A stretch of 28,160 nucleotides of DNA from a virus. The notes under the pieces were generated by a model. The model did no database searches and was not told where the DNA came from. It saw only the letters and a program-made list of their open reading frames with translations. Numbering within the stretch: position 1 is the first letter of the stretch; each line of letters starts with the position of its first letter. Of the stretch, positions 1 to 14,206 are shown in pieces. The position numbers were made by a program, and so were the translations under genes. The DNA is taken from the IMG/VR virus record IMGVR_UViG_3300042350_002138, positions 1 through 28,160 of that record. One strand, written 5' to 3'.

Positions 1-1745
1 TCGTAAAGGTTACCTAAATGATTAGAATAGTAAGTTTGGTAAAGGCTGTTTGGTTCTGTTTCTTGCGTTACAATATTGAACTCGTTACCAAAACAAAGTG
101 AAAACCCCGTTGTATTAACGCTGTTGAAAAGTGCGTAATCGGTTACGTTTAGATTTGAAGTACCGTCAAAGAATTTAAAAGTTGTTGCCGTTTCTTCGCC
201 TCCTAAATATAAAAGCAAAGGTTCCGGAACATACGCCGATTGATTTTCTTCAATTAAAAACGTGCAAAACAAATTACTTGTTTCTAATTCTGCAAATTGG
301 ATATTCTCAAAAGGTAACTCTATTTTAAATTCCGTTCCGTCGTATTCAAATGAATAATCTAAGTCACCGTATTGTCGATTAAACAACGCTGAAAAGTTTT
401 TATTTAAAAACGATTTACTTTCTTTATACTTAAATGCAATCTGTTTGTAAAGTGGTAATCGTTTAACGTTACTTGAATTAATAACATACTTCGTTATGTC
501 CTTTTCGCCTCCTAATGAATACCAATCCTGCAAAGGTTCAATTGTAAATGTCGTTTCGTTTTCTCCAACACAAACCAAATTAAATGCTTTGAAAATAGCT
601 GAAACAAAATCCGCAATCTTTAAATTAGGTGCTAAAATTGAAGCGTTCAAAGTTGACGTTAAGCTAATTGTATTTCCAAACCCTGTGTAAATTGTTCCAC
701 TTGGTGCTTCGTATAAAACACTAATGCTAAAACTAACCGTTTTATCCGCTTTAAATTGATAGGTAACAACTGAATTTAAACCCGGTACGTTTGCTTCATT
801 CGTTAAAATTAAAGGGTCTGTTCCTCCATAACTTTCGTAAGTAGCAAACAAAACTCCGTTAACATAAGCCTCGCAATAAATGGTAGCCGTTCCGTCTGAA
901 ACACTTGAAATATTTATTGTTGTTTTGTGAAACGTTGACCCTGCAATTGGAACATAAGAGTATGTTAATGTATTATCAATCGTATTAAAAAACGTGTTAC
1001 TTGGTGTTGTACTATTGTAATCAATTAATTCATAATTAGTCAAAAACACAAATTCCTCTACATTTTGATAACGAATATATAAATCCGTCCAACGTGCTGA
1101 ACTAAAAAACGTGCTATTAAAATTTATTCCAAATTGTGTTTCTATAATATCAAATATTTTAGATACTTTGATTGCAGGAAATAACTCAAACCATTTTACA
1201 CTTCCTGCATTTGTTGTAATATCGTTTGCGCTTGCATCTCCAAAAGTCCAAACTCTTCTTGGTGCAATTAACGGATAACGTACATTGTAAGCCGTTGTTC
1301 CGTCTGTTACTCTATTGTAAACTTCCGTACCGCTGTAAGTGTGTGCAATTGTAGAATAATCCAAATCTTTCAAAGTCAATTCCCCAAACCTATCTTTTAA
1401 ACTTGTTAATGCACCGAAGAAATTTAACGAATAACTTACAACTTGTCCGTCTTTAATTACCGCTTCATTCAGTTGTATTTTACCAACTCTAAACGGCATC
1501 GTTTCGATTTCAATAAAAGCGTCACGCCTTAAATTTTGGTCGATAGTTGGTACAACGTCACTTTCATACCAATGTTGGAAAATAGCGTTGTTTCGTGGTG
1601 ATGCAGGAACTAAAAACGATTGTGAAAAGTCGCTGAATACCTTGCTAATATCCTGAACGTTTGCAACAGAACTATTAACCGTTACAATTTCGTCTTTGAA
1701 TAAATCAACTTCAACCCCCTCAATAAATAGTTGCAACTTCGTCAT
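1..1745 (-). CDS. Large phage tail protein, 3' end beyond window
   Basis: The reading frame is open from an ATG at 1745 to the left edge, at least 581 codons, so the C-terminus is missing here. The N-terminus reads MTKLQLFIEGVEVDLF and continues with VNSSVANVQDISKVFSDF. That opening (a short strand, then a 'QDISKVF.DFSQ.F.VPAS' motif) is one I recognise from large tail proteins of Bacteroidota phages. The rest is rich in Thr, Asn, Ser and aromatic residues in beta-strand patterns, without membrane segments. It starts inside the end of the upstream tail gene (26-nt overlap), so translation is probably coupled. It lies downstream of the tail-completion gene, which fits a distal tail or baseplate role. 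The exact role is inferred; family membership is fairly secure. Confidence 0.75.
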   Translation of the reverse strand, partial: MTKLQLFIEGVEVDLFKDEIVTVNSSVANVQDISKVFSDFSQSFLVPASPRNNAIFQHWYESDVVPTIDQNLRRDAFIEIETMPFRVGKIQLNEAVIKDGQVVSYSLNFFGALTSLKDRFGELTLKDLDYSTIAHTYSGTEVYNRVTDGTTAYNVRYPLIAPRRVWTFGDASANDITTNAGSVKWFELFPAIKVSKIFDIIETQFGINFNSTFFSSARWTDLYIRYQNVEEFVFLTNYELIDYNSTTPSNTFFNTIDNTLTYSYVPIAGSTFHKTTINISSVSDGTATIYCEAYVNGVLFATYESYGGTDPLILTNEANVPGLNSVVTYQFKADKTVSFSISVLYEAPSGTIYTGFGNTISLTSTLNASILAPNLKIADFVSAIFKAFNLVCVGENETTFTIEPLQDWYSLGGEKDITKYVINSSNVKRLPLYKQIAFKYKESKSFLNKNFSALFNRQYGDLDYSFEYDGTEFKIELPFENIQFAELETSNLFCTFLIEENQSAYVPEPLLLYLGGEETATTFKFFDGTSNLNVTDYALFNSVNTTGFSLCFGNEFNIVTQETEPNSLYQTYYSNHLGNLY

Positions 1746-4197: not shown

Positions 4198-5353
4198 CTA
4201 ATAAATGTTGTAAACGCCCTTGTTCGTGCTTATAGATTCCATTTCGTGGTAACGAAGTGCGTCAATAGCGTGATCGTTTCCACCTTGCGGTTTGTTAGTT
4301 GTTTTTCCCGTTCTATCAACGTCCCAACAGTAACCCCGAAGTTCTTTAATTAGGTTTGTGCTGTCCGAAGTTACTAAGTACTCTTGCTGTTGCATTACGT
4401 CAATACCGTAGTTAATTGAATCCTTGCCTTTCGTTACAGGGTAAATTTGTAAACCCCTGCGTCTTATTTCTTCAATGGATTTCGGTTCTGCTGAATCCGC
4501 ATAAATAACCGCATCTTTTGGTAGTGCGTTTGCGATGTCACCGTTAACCATTCCGGTACGGTAAAACAATTCTTTAACAATTCTTTTATCGTTCCACTTG
4601 TAAACTGCAATCGCACTTGTCGGGTCGTTGGTATATCCGAAGTCTAATCCAATTCCTAATAAACGAGCTTCGTTTGGAATAGTGTCTATTGTTTGCCAGT
4701 TGCTGAATACAACCCCTTGTAAGTTTCCGATTTGCCCCTCTCCATAAACACGCCACCAATTCGCCCAATAATTAGACGTTTTCGCTTTCTCTTTCTTAAT
4801 CATTAAATCTTCGAGCGTTTCCTTTGAAATTCCCTCGTTATCTAAATAAGTAAGCAATAGAAATTCTGCGTTATGCTGTGGTAATATTTCACTATGCACC
4901 CAAAATTCGTTATCAGGATTAAAGTCGATATAAGTTTCAGCACTCCTAATCATTAAAGCATCTGCGATAATAAAAGGAATATGATTTGCTTCGTTAAGGA
5001 ATAGAATATCACGCTTTCCGCTTGCTTTTGCTTTACCGTCTGAATCGAATGATTTAAACTGCATTCGTGAACCGTTTGTAAAAGTGTAAATTAATGCTGA
5101 AGCGTTCCAATTGTTTTCAATCCAACGGTTTGTTTCAACCATTATCGTTTTGAAAATATCTAACGCTCCCTCTTTTACTGCTGGCAAAGTTTCTGCAACA
5201 ACGGTTATTTTTATACGTTGTTCTTTGATTGCTCGGTCTATCAATATTGGAATGATAGCGTATGTTTTTCCTGCATTGTCTCCCCTACCTATTGCTAAGT
5301 AGGGGATAAAGGGCAGAAGTCCCACCTTGTATCACTCGGATACGAGACTTCAT
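4198..5353 (-). CDS. terL: Large terminase (TerL), Walker A split by a 40-nt segment
   Basis: This is the ATP-driven DNA packaging motor and nuclease. The frame from ATG 5353 encodes MKSRIRVIQGGTSA and then runs into a TAG. After skipping 5312-5273, the +1 frame continues GKTYAIIPILIDRA. Joined, they make a normal terminase start with Walker A GGTSAGKT and a 371-residue protein. Walker B is DILFLNEAN at about residues 102-110. Nuclease acidic motifs follow: GLDFGYT (D224), IYADSAEP (D273) and NDHAIDALRY (D347, D351). A start at GTG 5325 gives an uninterrupted 375-residue protein, but it loses the adenine-binding Q and breaks the first Gly of Walker A (RGDNAGKT). Terminase identity is secure. 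How the halves are joined (bypass, or a damaged gene) is not settled. Confidence 0.9.
5273..5312 (-). other. 40-nt hairpin insertion / candidate translational bypass element
   Basis: This segment separates codon GCC (Ala, 5314-5312) from GCA (Ala, 5274-5272). Flanking TGC triplets are repeated at both borders. The RNA folds as UCCCCUAC-UUA-GCAA-UAG-GUAGGGGA, giving 11 pairs (one G-U) and a GNRA tetraloop at 5307-5282. The 3' arm supplies GGGGAG five nucleotides before the GCA codon. A zero-frame TAG lies in the 3' arm. Removing exactly 40 nt restores GGTSAGKT and the frame. T4 gene 60 uses the same ingredients: a hairpin at take-off, matching codons, and a GAG just before landing. Confidence 0.7.
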
Positions 5354-5363
5354 TGCTTTTATT

Positions 5364-5741
5364 CTATTTATTGCTGTCGTTCTCTTGAACATATTGGTCG
5401 AATACTTTTTTTAGTTCACTAATCCTATCTAACAAGCAACTGCCACAATTTGTAAATTCAGCGTTCTTGTTAAACGTACTTGTATAAATTTGGTTTAATC
5501 GGTATTGAACTGTTGGAACAACCGAACCCCTTGTGACTTCAAAGAATTCCTTTAGAAAGTTGTAATCTTGTTCGCTTAAACAGTTAGGTTTTGAATAAGG
5601 AAATAGTTTGTTTAAAGCTTCCTTTCGTTGGTCGCAACCGCAATCCTCTCCTGCTACAAATTTAACAAGTGCTTTGATTCCCGTTGCTGTTGTGATTTGG
5701 TCGATTGTATCTCCTAATCCTTGTGCTTTTTTTCGTGCCAT
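5364..5741 (-). CDS. Conserved Cys-containing protein upstream of terL, 125 aa
   Basis: This 125-residue protein begins MARKKAQGLGDTIDQITTATGIKALVKF. It has two cysteine clusters: DCGCDQRKE near residues 33-41 and NCGSC near 98-102, which together could bind one zinc ion. The 'GLGDT...TGIK...GEDCGCD.RK..LN..FPY' pattern is one I know from proteins encoded immediately before terL in Bacteroidota phages, where no function is established. It overlaps the upstream coiled-coil gene by 28 nt and stops 10 nt before the terL ATG. A packaging-related role is suggested only by position. Confidence 0.55.
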   Translation of the reverse strand: MARKKAQGLGDTIDQITTATGIKALVKFVAGEDCGCDQRKEALNKLFPYSKPNCLSEQDYNFLKEFFEVTRGSVVPTVQYRLNQIYTSTFNKNAEFTNCGSCLLDRISELKKVFDQYVQENDSNK

Positions 5742-5905
5742 AAGTCGCTTAATTCTTTTAAATCGTTTCTAAGTGTTTGGTTTTCTTTTTGTAGTTTTTT
5801 GTTTTCTTTTTCAAGTTGGCAAAACATTCCGTAAAACTCTTTTGCTCGTTCTTGACGTCTTTCAAGTTCGTTTTCTAATAATTCAAGTATGTTCTTAAAA
5901 TTCAT
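5714..5905 (-). CDS. Small coiled-coil protein, 63 aa
   Basis: This 63-residue, highly charged protein has a heptad-like pattern of Leu, Glu, Lys and Gln (ELLENELERRQER, then LEKENKKLQKENQTLRNDLKEL), so most of it should form a coiled coil. It has no membrane segment. Its ATG overlaps the stop of the sigma-like gene (ATGA-type junction at 5902-5905), and its own end overlaps the next gene by 28 nt, so the three are translated as a unit. I do not recognise a family. A structural or adaptor role near packaging genes is possible. Confidence 0.6.
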   Translation of the reverse strand: MNFKNILELLENELERRQERAKEFYGMFCQLEKENKKLQKENQTLRNDLKELSDLWHEKKHKD

Positions 5906-6426
5906 ATCAATTCTAAATCATTATTAATTAAATCTAAATAGTCATCACCACAATTAACCCTTATCTTTTCTTTACATTCTCCAATCACTTCAAAGATTGA
6001 ACGTAAACTTATATCCGTTCCGTTGGCAATATCTCGCATTGAATGGTTGCCCGTTAAATACAATCTGAATAGTGTTTGGTCGTAACTATGCCACTTGTTT
6101 ATTTCATCGTTAATCTTTGCTCTAAACCTATTTTGTGCTTGGTAAAATTCGCTATTATCAACGTCTGCAATTTCCAAAGGTAAATTATTTATCTTAGATA
6201 TTTGCTTTTTTGCCTTTAGAAAATTTAAGAATATAGATTTAAGGGTTAAGTGAATAAAGTATTGGTTTATTTTTCCGTCTACAATAATATCTTCTGGTCG
6301 CTTATTTCGGTCTAATCGCAAGTACATTTCCTGCACCAAATCCTCAGCGTAAAAGTACTCCCCGAACTTGTTAATCGTTCGAACGTAATCTTTGTGATGT
6401 TTAGCAACTTCCCCTAACCATTCCAT
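5902..6426 (-). CDS. Sigma-70-like protein, 174 aa
   Basis: Residues 25-40 read FYAEDLVQEMYLRLDR, which matches the region 2 helix of sigma-70/ECF factors (usual form 'aeDlvQevflrl'). Residues 114-150 contain YDQTLFRLYLTGNHSMRDIANGTDISLRSIFEVI, which resembles region 4: 'l.l...g.s..eIA...gis..sv'. The length (174 aa) fits ECF-type factors. It may direct host RNA polymerase to late promoters, or be a sigma-fold packaging or regulatory protein that lost polymerase binding. It sits between the small terminase and terL, overlapping the small terminase gene by one base, so it is made with the packaging genes. Confidence 0.6.
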   Translation of the reverse strand: MEWLGEVAKHHKDYVRTINKFGEYFYAEDLVQEMYLRLDRNKRPEDIIVDGKINQYFIHLTLKSIFLNFLKAKKQISKINNLPLEIADVDNSEFYQAQNRFRAKINDEINKWHSYDQTLFRLYLTGNHSMRDIANGTDISLRSIFEVIGECKEKIRVNCGDDYLDLINNDLELI

Positions 6427-6839
6427 TATTCATCTGGGAAAAGTGGTTGTTCGATAATCGTGTTTTCAACTTGGTCTTTCAATCCGTTCAAACGTTGTGT
6501 TATACTTGGATTATAGAATCCTAATAAACCGCCAGTTATTTGGTCTTGTCGAATTTCTTGTTTTATACGCAAACAGATAACCCCAAACACTTCGTAATAA
6601 CCTTGTTTATTGTCAAAGTAATGTTTAACTGTTCCGTAATTATCATAGCAAAATATTTCAAATCCTTCCATTGTTAAAGGTACTTTTTGAGGTTCTTCAA
6701 CTCGTTCGCCGTCTTTACCTACAAAGTGAACTTTAACCCACTTAAAAGATTCTTGTTTAACGTGTTCTTTGTATTCAAGCCACGCATTAAAAAGTTCTTC
6801 GGGTTCTTTGAATATTCTTGTTGGGTGTGGTTTTTTCAT
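6426..6839 (-). CDS. terS: Small terminase subunit, gp3-packaging-like
   Basis: This 137-residue protein starts MKKPHPTRIFKEPEELFNAWLEYKEHVK. It then has the 'PLTMEGFEIFC' segment and 'YGTVKHYFDNKQGYYEVFGVICLRIKQEIRQDQITGGLLGFYNPSITQRLNGL'. The order 'PEEL...W..Y......PLT..GF..F......YF.......Y....I...I..D.i.Ga..G..n..i..r.LgL' is that of P22 gp3-type DNA-recognition subunits, which bind the packaging site and load DNA on TerL. It lies four genes upstream of TerL and in the same transcription unit, instead of directly adjacent. The call rests on motif order and length, without a search. Confidence 0.7.
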   Translation of the reverse strand: MKKPHPTRIFKEPEELFNAWLEYKEHVKQESFKWVKVHFVGKDGERVEEPQKVPLTMEGFEIFCYDNYGTVKHYFDNKQGYYEVFGVICLRIKQEIRQDQITGGLLGFYNPSITQRLNGLKDQVENTIIEQPLFPDE

Positions 6840-9798: not shown

Positions 9799-10269
9799 TT
9801 AATTAAGTTGGTTTATAATTGCGTTGTTTTCTTTTAAAAAGTTAAAAGTATAACATTTGAATTTAGTACCATCATAATTTTCTCTTTCAATTCCGTTGTC
9901 TTTTAATTTAGTTCTAATTTTGTCAATATCAAATAAAATGTATTTTATTATTGTTTCTTCATTTTCAGATAAAACTCCATAAAAATAAATTTGTCCTTTA
10001 CCATCAATTAATTTATCAATTTCAGTTAATCCACCATTTTTAGCTTTACTTCTAATTGTAATATCGTTATAATTTCTATATTTAAAAGACCTTATTCTAA
10101 CTGATATTTGAATATCCGCACTAAAATATAAATCAAAAGATAATTTAGTGTCTTCAACTTCCGAGCTTTCATTAACAACAAAACAATTTTTAGGTAAATT
10201 GCTTATGTTTTTATAAACAATCTTTTTAATATCATTGATAAATTTACGTTCTAATTCCCTAATTTCCAT
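9799..10269 (-). CDS. Nuclease-like protein paired with the methyltransferase, 156 aa
   Basis: This 156-residue protein has the run KLSFDLYFSADIQISVRIRSFKYRNYNDITIRSKAKNGG-type core (about residues 42-80), then TEIDKLIDGKGQIYFYG and IIKYILFDIDKIR. The pattern 'D-strand ... (V)RIR... TIRSK ... E.dKi.dG.gd..fYG' is one I know from phage proteins related to the PD-(D/E)XK nuclease fold, usually encoded near DNA methylases. Here a classical E-x-K triad is not plainly present, so activity is unsure. The start lies inside the end of the ParB-methyltransferase gene (11-base overlap). Whether it cuts DNA, or marks DNA with its partner, is inference. Confidence 0.5.
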   Translation of the reverse strand: MEIRELERKFINDIKKIVYKNISNLPKNCFVVNESSEVEDTKLSFDLYFSADIQISVRIRSFKYRNYNDITIRSKAKNGGLTEIDKLIDGKGQIYFYGVLSENEETIIKYILFDIDKIRTKLKDNGIERENYDGTKFKCYTFNFLKENNAIINQLN

Positions 10270-11614
10270 TTATGTAATTATTTGCTATGTTAAACATTTC
10301 TTTATCTAATTCAATTCCTAAACATTTTGCTTTTAATTCTTGACAAACTTTAATTGTGCTTCCAGAACCCATAAAAGGATCAACGATAAAATCTCCCTCA
10401 TTAAAAGACACTTCTAAAATTTCCTTTATTAATTCGTTTGGTTTTTGTGTTGGGTGTATCATTTTTGAAGTGTGTAATCTTGAAACACTAATCAAATTAC
10501 CACGTCTGTTGTTAATTAACTTTTTACCTTTTACACAGTAAATAATTATTTCAGTTTGGTTTCCCCAATCGTTATCTAAATCCCCACTTCCTTTATTTCC
10601 TTTATCCCAAACAATAGGTGTTTTTATAGTGAAATACTTACTTATAATTGCTTCAAATTTACTAAACACAGACCAGCTACAAAAGAAATATAAATGAGAG
10701 TTTACTGCTGTTTTTCTTTGTAATATTTCACAAGTTTTATCTAATAAATCAAAGGCTTCATCTTTACCATCGTTAAGTAATCCACGTTTTGTTATTGCAT
10801 TTTCATCTGTTGAACGATTAGAAACATAATCAATTCCATACGGAGGATCGGTTAAAACTATATCAATACAACCATCTTCTAAGGTTTCTAATATTTCTAA
10901 ACTATTTCCTTGTTTTATACTTTCGTTTATTTTAGTTTCAATTCTTGCTTCTAAAACCTTTTCTTTGTATTCCGCTTTCTTTTCTTCTTTCTTTATTTCT
11001 TGTATTATAATTTCAACTGGCTTGCTTTCAACTTTTAAAGCATCAATAACTTTTGCCCTTGTTTCTGTTGTTTGTTTAATTAAAATATCACCGTAGCTTT
11101 TAGGCGCATCAATAGTTTTTAATACTTCGGCTTCTTCTTCCGTTATTTCAATACCACGTTTAACGGATTGTTCAATAGTACGTTTTGATTGATTTGTTAA
11201 ATTTGCTGTTGTTTTGCTAAACGCAAAGTTTTCGTTTAGCACATCTTTTGTATGTTGATTTACAGCACCTTTTTTAGTGTCAGGATACAATTCTAAATAA
11301 ATAATTTTGCGCCTTGCTATTTGCTTATCCGCATCCGTCCAGTGCAATTCATTACGCACTAAATTTTCATCAATTTCAGCAAGTTCAGCAAGTAAATTAT
11401 TCAAGTCTAAAACGCTTACTTCTATTTCGTCTTTACCAAGTAATTTAAACGCTTCTAAACGGTGGTTTCCTGCAATTAAAACGTTGTTACTATTAACCGT
11501 AATTGGGTTTATTAAACCTAATTGTTTAATACTTTCAGCAAGTTCTTTAACTTTCGATTCATCTACTTTTCTACGGTTGTCGTTTAAAACAATTTCACTA
11601 ATTTTTTTTATCAT
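10259..11614 (-). CDS. ParB-domain / N6-adenine DNA methyltransferase fusion
   Basis: This 451-residue fusion starts with a ParB/Srx-like N-terminal domain (residues 1-100: DESKVKELAESIKQLGLINPI, then LIAGNHRLEAFKLLG with the GNHR nucleotide-binding box). A helical linker with an HTH-like section follows. The C-terminal half is a DNA methyltransferase: catalytic DPPYGIDY at 256-263 (motif IV) precedes the SAM-binding DPFMGSGST at 412-420 (motif I), which is the beta-class order; PTQKP is also present. DPPY predicts methylation of adenine N6. The likely roles are protection of phage DNA from host restriction, or marking the origin. It is the first gene after the repeat-rich gap and its leader RNA. 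Confidence 0.85.
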   Translation of the reverse strand: MIKKISEIVLNDNRRKVDESKVKELAESIKQLGLINPITVNSNNVLIAGNHRLEAFKLLGKDEIEVSVLDLNNLLAELAEIDENLVRNELHWTDADKQIARRKIIYLELYPDTKKGAVNQHTKDVLNENFAFSKTTANLTNQSKRTIEQSVKRGIEITEEEAEVLKTIDAPKSYGDILIKQTTETRAKVIDALKVESKPVEIIIQEIKKEEKKAEYKEKVLEARIETKINESIKQGNSLEILETLEDGCIDIVLTDPPYGIDYVSNRSTDENAITKRGLLNDGKDEAFDLLDKTCEILQRKTAVNSHLYFFCSWSVFSKFEAIISKYFTIKTPIVWDKGNKGSGDLDNDWGNQTEIIIYCVKGKKLINNRRGNLISVSRLHTSKMIHPTQKPNELIKEILEVSFNEGDFIVDPFMGSGSTIKVCQELKAKCLGIELDKEMFNIANNYINGN

Positions 11615-13600: not shown

Positions 13601-14206
13601 TTATTTGATTACTTGTTTTGATTTAAATAAAATTCTTTGCTGTTTATATCTGCAATTGTTACAAACTCGAATACCTTTTTGAAACTTATTTTTCAACTTT
13701 ACTTCATTACATTTACTGCATTGTTTAGTAGTTGATGTTTGCTTTTTGATTAATATTAAATCGTGTTGTTCTTTTAGTTTTGTAAAGTTTTTGTATGTTG
13801 ATTTTATTGCTTTTTCGCTTTCTAACATATCCAACAACTTTGATTTTTTCCAAGTGGTTAAAACTAAATTATCAATTCTATTATCTAAGGTATCTTTATT
13901 TATATGAGCAACGCATTTAGATTTGTCACCGTGTAACTCAGGATAAAAAGAAAAGAATACATTGCTTTGCATACTTATTGATTTTCCTGCATAAGCTGTT
14001 AAAACAATAGTTCCACCAACTTTATTAAAACTTTGCTTTATAATTTTACCTTTTATAAAAGTTTCAGAACCCCAACGATTTATAATAAATCTATCAAGCG
14101 ATTTTAACCTGCCTAAATTAGAAACTTCATAATTTTCATTTCCAAAAAATGGCACCCAAATTTCTCCTTCAATATCTTCTAAAGATAAATTCTCAAAGTG
14201 TTTCAT
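13601..14206 (-). CDS. Free-standing HNH homing endonuclease with NUMOD4 domain
   Basis: This 201-residue protein has an N-terminal NUMOD4 motif: EIWVPFFGNENYEVSNLGRLKS (residues 15-36; 'eeWkpi.g.e.YeVSnlGrvrs'). The HNH core is HINKDTLDNRIDNL (101-114), with H101, N109 and N113. A C-terminal zinc-ribbon-type part follows: CSKCNEVKLKNKF (C163, C166) and VCNNCR (C182, C185). Such proteins cut a specific site in intron- or gene-free relatives, so the gene spreads. It sits between a small gene and the SSB gene with only 10 bases to the SSB ATG, as an inserted mobile gene would. Confidence 0.8.
   Translation of the reverse strand: MKHFENLSLEDIEGEIWVPFFGNENYEVSNLGRLKSLDRFIINRWGSETFIKGKIIKQSFNKVGGTIVLTAYAGKSISMQSNVFFSFYPELHGDKSKCVAHINKDTLDNRIDNLVLTTWKKSKLLDMLESEKAIKSTYKNFTKLKEQHDLILIKKQTSTTKQCSKCNEVKLKNKFQKGIRVCNNCRYKQQRILFKSKQVIK

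Follow-up and report, generated by a model that had tools for sequence, protein, structure and literature searches.

A hairpin insert in the Walker A codons of phage large terminase genes as a probable translational bypass element linked to homing

The terminase locus and its insert

The window (the whole stretch of 28,160 nt analysed here) carries on its minus strand a gene for the large terminase subunit (TerL), identified by a match to PF17288 and by several PHROGs, whose coding sequence is divided in two. The upstream part (5312..5392, minus) comprises 27 codons (MFKRTTAINRIKAMKSRIRVIQGGTSA) and ends in an Ala codon, the putative take-off codon GCC (5314-5312), which is reached in the zero frame through ...GGT GGG ACT TCT GCC. 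The downstream part (4198..5271, minus) comprises 357 codons (GKTYAIIPILIDRA... to the stop) and encodes the remaining ATPase together with the nuclease domain Terminase_3C (PF17288). Between the two lie 40 nt (5272..5311, minus; length 1 modulo 3) that interrupt the Walker A codons, and whose removal restores an intact Walker A motif, GGTSA-GKT. The first-pass annotation had placed the skipped segment at 5312-5273, which describes an identical join displaced by one base owing to the shared GC, and had opened the reading frame at 5353. The actual start is the ATG at 5392, and the longer N-terminus is conserved among relatives.

The other elements that the first-pass annotation had described in this segment are indeed present, all on the minus strand. 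An 11-bp stem, with its 5′ arm at 5296..5306 (starting 5 nt past the take-off codon) and its 3′ arm at 5281..5291, encloses a GCAA tetraloop (5292..5295), and folding adds an outer 6-bp pairing of UUCUGC (5313..5318) with GCAGGA (5269..5274), the latter including the second Ala codon, the putative landing codon GCA (5274-5272), after which reading would resume with GGA AAA ACA at 5271. A zero-frame TAG (5287-5285) is the ninth codon after GCC, and a GGGGAG ends 5 nt ahead of the landing codon. The whole insert region folds with -26.9 kcal/mol (z = -3.84; none of 200 shuffles was equally stable). No second copy of the hairpin was found within the window, the insert region gave no Rfam match at E up to 1, and Rfam returned no known RNA element in the window, in L323 or in L086.

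Upstream of TerL follow a small adjoining gene (5364..5741, minus), with homologues in the syntenic contigs L323 and L327, and the gene for the small terminase subunit (TerS; 6426..6839, minus), of which L323 also has a homologue. The 174-aa protein encoded between the terminase genes (5902-6426, minus) looks by eye like a small sigma-type factor (FYAEDLVQE...); it has no Pfam match, and its homologues have an HTH-like end. Elsewhere in the window, a ParB N-terminal domain is fused to an N6/N4 DNA methyltransferase (10259-11614, minus).

Recurrence of the insert among relatives

Close relatives that lack the 40 nt and match on both flanks, which the first-pass annotation had proposed to look for, do exist: in L005-L017, whose TerL is about 98% identical to that of the window, the insert is absent and the Walker A motif reads GGTNAGKT. 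The window insert itself is carried by L002, L003, L004 and L030 (with small changes in L004 and L030), and L019 and L034, with TerL about 65% identical, have different hairpins at the same codon. IMG/VR was scanned for Walker A codons split by a gap, and this yielded 62 insert loci distinct by flank in the TerL family of the window, with 49 distinct inserts of 32-44 nt, all at the same Walker A codon. Every TerL gene with a visible motif is either intact or hairpin-bearing (L059, re-read by eye, is intact with QGSTSA). A scan for the commonest hairpin matched SKT-type terminases at two loci (L323 and L327) and also a second terminase family (Terminase_3; L324, L326 and L328), which is 22% identical to the first over part of its length and in which the matching IMG/VR scan gave 22 insert loci (21 distinct) in YGGAA-GGGK(S/T). 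A Terminase_3 relative, L427, has its frame broken upstream of an intact Walker A.

Across all loci the inserts measure 32-45 nt and fall into all three classes modulo 3. Scans permitting gaps of 14-44 nt and of 45-75 nt gave no real insert of any other length; the candidates at 45-75 nt were false matches, for example intact GGTRS-SKT terminases with a further GKT downstream. Scanning 566 kb of the same contigs for further bypass hairpins returned, besides the TerL site in antisense, a few hairpins that mostly resemble terminators.

The evidence is comparative and metagenomic, from loci that are not fully independent, and hosts are inferred solely from related Flavobacterium phages. No isolated phage bearing the insert was found. 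Flavobacterium phage 11b, the closest among isolates in the second family at 76.6% identity, has its Walker A uninterrupted, and isolates of the first family are less than 60% identical. One pattern scan of the GTDB bacterial genomes gave false matches only, so that no prophage or host could be named.

Common organization of the inserts

The inserts share one order of elements, namely a take-off codon, 5-6 nt (in nearly all inserts), a stem with a C-rich and a G-rich arm, and a landing codon of the same box as the take-off codon. When inserts were clustered at 72% identity, the two boxes were identical (Ala-Ala, Gly-Gly or Ser-Ser) in 11 of the 12 clusters (P about 4e-10 against shuffled inserts), and in all 12 when G.U was allowed at codon position 2. 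Landing codons of the Ala type are GCA (35), GTA (11), GCT (7), GTT (2) and GCG (1), those of the Gly type GGA (8) and GGT (1), and those of the Ser type TCA (3) and TCT (1); in the second family, landing is on GCN or GTN in 21/21 distinct inserts. GTN can pair with an Ala anticodon through a middle U.G pair.

Matching codons are retained for three boxes, each at a different position within GTSAG. Pairing between the flanks cannot explain the match, because the Gly-Gly and Ser-Ser types are not self-complementary. A target site duplicated at insertion could in principle have supplied identical codons, but this is countered by the differing third bases and by the persistence of the match over large divergence. 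GCA serves as take-off codon in none of 56 Ala-type inserts, against 49 of 129 intact sites having it at that position (Fisher p = 8e-10, the loci not being independent). A point against bypassing is that a tRNA-Ala decoding take-off GCC through the anticodon GGC should form only a poor pairing with landing GCA, so that bypassing would require a tRNA able to read both codons. The exception to the codon rule is L161, with take-off TCG and landing GCA; its insert lies near position 848 of the reversed locus (reverse strand) and relatives beside it have GCG/GCA, which makes it a natural test of the rule.

Within the spacer, the second codon starts with UA in 57 of 69 inserts. No insert can be read through, since each either shifts the frame or, if its length is divisible by 3, has a stop in frame. 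The position of the zero-frame stop is not fixed: it directly follows the take-off codon (+1) in 6/69 inserts and stands at +2 in 35/69. The GAG ahead of the landing site, present in the window, is missing from many other inserts. On the downstream side, the 3′ frame of most relatives has a stop shortly upstream of GKT, with no ATG, GTG or TTG in between.

Covariation of the stem and selection on the gene

In the best-sampled insert type, three of the nine stem pairs have changed on both sides (U-A/G-C/A-U, C-G/U-A and A-U/C-G/G-C); the covariation score was reached by none of 500 shuffles, and slid versions scored lower. The gene around the inserts is under purifying selection, with dN/dS of 0.013-0.11 in the TerL bodies of insert-bearing pairs (window against the insert-bearing TerL of L004: dS 0.54, dN/dS 0.016). 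Constraint on the 21 codons preceding GTSA and on the 25 following GKT is as strong as in intact genes, and the upstream coding part contains no stop in 57/57 insert-bearing relatives (pN/pS 0.28). The N-terminal 27 residues are conserved both with and without the insert, so their conservation does not point to a specific nascent-peptide signal.

Homing endonucleases and spread of the inserts

A gene of the NUMOD4/HNH or GIY-YIG type lies between the small subunit gene and TerL at 20 of 60 insert loci, as compared with 5 of 115 intact loci (p = 5.5e-7), and in the second family an adjacent endonuclease, assigned by sequence motif, accompanies 10/21 insert and 1/63 intact loci. The calls are supported by Pfam and PHROGs, weakly in the case of the GIY-YIG genes (PF22945 lies below its cut-off, PHROG 314 ‘homing endonuclease’ agrees, and the candidate gave no match to a solved structure). 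Two thirds of the insert loci are without a recognised adjacent endonuclease gene, and no degraded remnants of one were detected upstream of insert-only loci. The five intact loci with an endonuclease (L047, L048, L049, L060 and L065) are close relatives, in which the GIY-YIG gene overlaps the start of TerL. Their intact Walker A is spelled GGAACAAGTGC(G/T)GGTAAGACA, perhaps reflecting resistance by synonymous change.

On a TerL tree of 101 representatives, the insert state changes at least 17 times, often between sister genes, and of 13 independent tree pairs, 5-7 have the endonuclease on the side of the insert and 0-1 on the opposite side (median p = 0.03). Inserts sharing 90-100% identity, along with N-terminal tracts that mostly share 84-100%, are found in TerL bodies of mostly 74-84% identity; the surroundings of the window insert, specifically, are 97% identical between contigs whose upstream DNA is unrelated (about 20-35% identity). 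To judge from these identities, the inserts move between TerL lineages along with the N-terminal tract.

The window TerL has no adjoining endonuclease gene. In L323 and L327, which are syntenic with the window, the interval between the 5364-5741 homologue and TerL is precisely where an HNH gene sits, and the window therefore looks like a relative without one, of a lineage that presumably lost such an adjacent gene or never had it. A homing-endonuclease gene with NUMOD4 and HNH_3 does occur in the window (13601-14206, minus), 8 kb from TerL. In L410, a relative from the second family, an in-frame intein occupies the Walker A motif (GGSAG/CFGIDTKVKC...NIVVHN/SAKS; locus start to about 1182, plus strand), and these codons are thereby independently marked as a homing target. 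The slot between the two terminase genes has other occupants as well. L121 and L139, both insert-bearing, have a methyltransferase-like gene there (by eye), and insert-bearing L157 has a tmRNA gene (ARAGORN; 1194-1536, plus strand), also matched by Rfam as a permuted tmRNA (RF04321, 1239-1445, 58.8 bits). A tmRNA, which serves in ribosome rescue, in the usual endonuclease slot beside a candidate bypass gene is striking but may be a coincidence.

Interpretation and alternative explanations

On this comparative evidence, the 40-nt insert is very probably a programmed translational bypass element belonging to a homing-linked mobile cassette. Ribosomes would translate the first 27 TerL codons and halt at the Ala take-off codon GCC before the hairpin; the peptidyl-tRNA would then release, the ribosome would cross the folded 37-nt gap, and the tRNA would re-pair with the Ala codon GCA, so that reading could resume at GGA AAA ACA and complete the Walker A motif GGTSAGKT. 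The insert most likely persists by removing the recognition site of an endonuclease that would cut the Walker A codons of insert-free TerL, the candidate being the gene found directly upstream of TerL in many relatives, comparable to mobA beside T4 gene 60. From the insert, its recurrence and grammar, the stem, the selection on the flanks, the association with endonucleases and the cassette transfer we infer both the ribosomal hop and the protection from the endonuclease, the latter by analogy with T4 (PMC5009743, PMC2988022).

Bypassing might also be real and yet be kept for another reason, namely to regulate the amount of terminase, with the link to homing endonucleases being incidental. T4-type bypassing is incomplete, with about half of the ribosomes completing it (PMC11194080), and a similar loss would lower TerL output. 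The first-pass annotation had proposed just such a control of terminase level, for which the comparison offers no support: an insert state that flips at least 17 times on the tree, follows endonuclease genes adjoining TerL and moves with a short flank is better explained by a homing-linked mobile element that the ribosome tolerates than by conserved regulation, which we regard as unlikely. Somewhat less likely still is that the hairpin is cut from the mRNA (or DNA) and its flanks joined in the manner of a mini-intron, leaving a normal gene to be read. The flanks would join cleanly at all loci, and those of the Ala type pair with each other, but excision needs no synonymous codons on both sides, and these are kept in three codon boxes. 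Since the Gly and Ser codons match in spite of not being self-complementary, re-pairing of the tRNA is favoured over excision, and Rfam holds no matching family. Self-splicing introns are far longer than 32-45 nt, and we know of no bacterial system that removes so short a segment from mRNA.

It is very improbable that TerL is produced in two pieces, one a short N-terminal peptide and the other a C-terminal chain beginning at GTG 5325 (MGLLPFIPYLAIGRGDNAGKT...) or further downstream, even though in the window the GTG-start frame stays open through the insert and phages are known to have genes split as a result of homing insertion (PMC2988022). The GTG-start variant considered in the first-pass annotation does not hold up across the family, because in most relatives this frame has a stop shortly before GKT and no start codon after it. 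A split in the middle of the P-loop would, in addition, destroy the ATPase, and the codons right after GKT are constrained as in intact genes. Finally, TerL is interrupted in the assembly as given, which is what would be expected if the inserts inactivated the gene and the contigs represented defective phages or assembly artefacts. This is hardly credible, given that the inserts differ and come from many independent metagenomes, that insert-bearing TerL is under strong purifying selection (dN/dS 0.016 between the window and L004), that other upstream lesions are absent (a stop in 0/57) and that the hairpin covaries. Assembly error in particular, which had been left as a way out, is excluded by the recurrence of the same construction at one codon in dozens of independent contigs.

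A wider statement seems reasonably likely, with less assurance than the reading for the window. Bacteroidota phages would carry a large class of portable bypass elements whose signal is local, made up of a take-off codon, some 6 nt with UA at their end, a C/G-rich hairpin, an A-rich spacer and a landing codon. They would operate with at least three tRNA boxes in two barely similar terminase families and spread in company with homing endonucleases of the HNH or GIY-YIG type directed at the terminase Walker A codons. Ala types, which never use GCA for take-off, land for the most part on codons ending in A, seemingly trading weak wobble pairing for stronger. Elements working with that many boxes in two such families would not depend on one nascent peptide.

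Significance

For more than 35 years, to our knowledge, T4 gene 60 has been essentially the only proven example of programmed bypassing among bacteria and their viruses. The natural loci described here, more than 80 in number, share one grammar within a protein motif that tolerates no error, so that evolution can show what the candidate bypass requires (codon match, spacer, stem and stop) and natural variants can serve to test it. What emerges looks like a widespread mobile element in uncultured viruses, of a kind so far well known from phage T4 alone, and it suggests a general origin of bypassing in the tolerance of a homing-linked insert at an otherwise unchangeable spot of an essential gene. 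On the practical side, gene-calling programs will annotate such terminases wrongly, as truncated genes or as short ones with a GTG start.

Comparison with known systems

No report of such terminase inserts was found in the open literature, with subscription papers and preprints mostly outside the search. Several bypassed or putatively bypassed sequences are nevertheless related in one respect or another. Bypassing has been suggested for the terminase of Streptomyces phage Hau3 (PMC5009743), a proposal that concerns decoding of the codon UUA and involves no hairpin within the Walker A codons, and set apart here by its description, not by sequence. A 29-nt hop was proposed for an adhesin of Prevotella loescheii, likewise a Bacteroidota gene (PMC5009743), but this is a single bacterial gene, never followed up and without mobile context. 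The byp elements in the mitochondria of Magnusiomyces capitatus are many short bypassed inserts that tolerate imperfect codon matches (PMC5009743); they are mitochondrial, occur in many genes and are apparently independent of mRNA context, whereas the terminase inserts occupy a single site, follow a fixed grammar and are linked to homing endonucleases. Inteins can share the insertion site in the Walker A motif of TerL, as in L410, but are long and are removed from the protein, while the terminase inserts of 32-45 nt lie outside the joined protein.

The closest counterpart is T4 gene 60, with its 50-nt bypass, together with mobA, where likewise two open frames of one conserved protein are separated by a non-coding gap. 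In T4, gaps of up to about 56 nt are bypassed with high processivity (PMC11194080); every terminase insert is shorter than this. Among the T4-like features that the first-pass annotation had pointed to, a hairpin bypass between matched codons (GCC/GCA in the window, with L161 as the exception) has gained strong comparative support, whereas the terminase inserts as a family do not share the GAG ahead of the landing codon. A stem-loop at take-off is also common to both, with a different geometry, as the T4 take-off codon lies inside the stem; the stop directly 3′ of the take-off codon in T4 is not a rule among the terminase inserts. Because neither this adjacent stop nor the GAG is shared, the terminase inserts are not classed as gene 60-type in the narrow sense. 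What they do have in common with the mobA/gene 60 cassette is a free-standing endonuclease gene adjoining the interrupted gene (at many insert loci, not in the window itself) and horizontal spread with a co-converted flank, and they differ from it in gene, geometry, stop position and scale.
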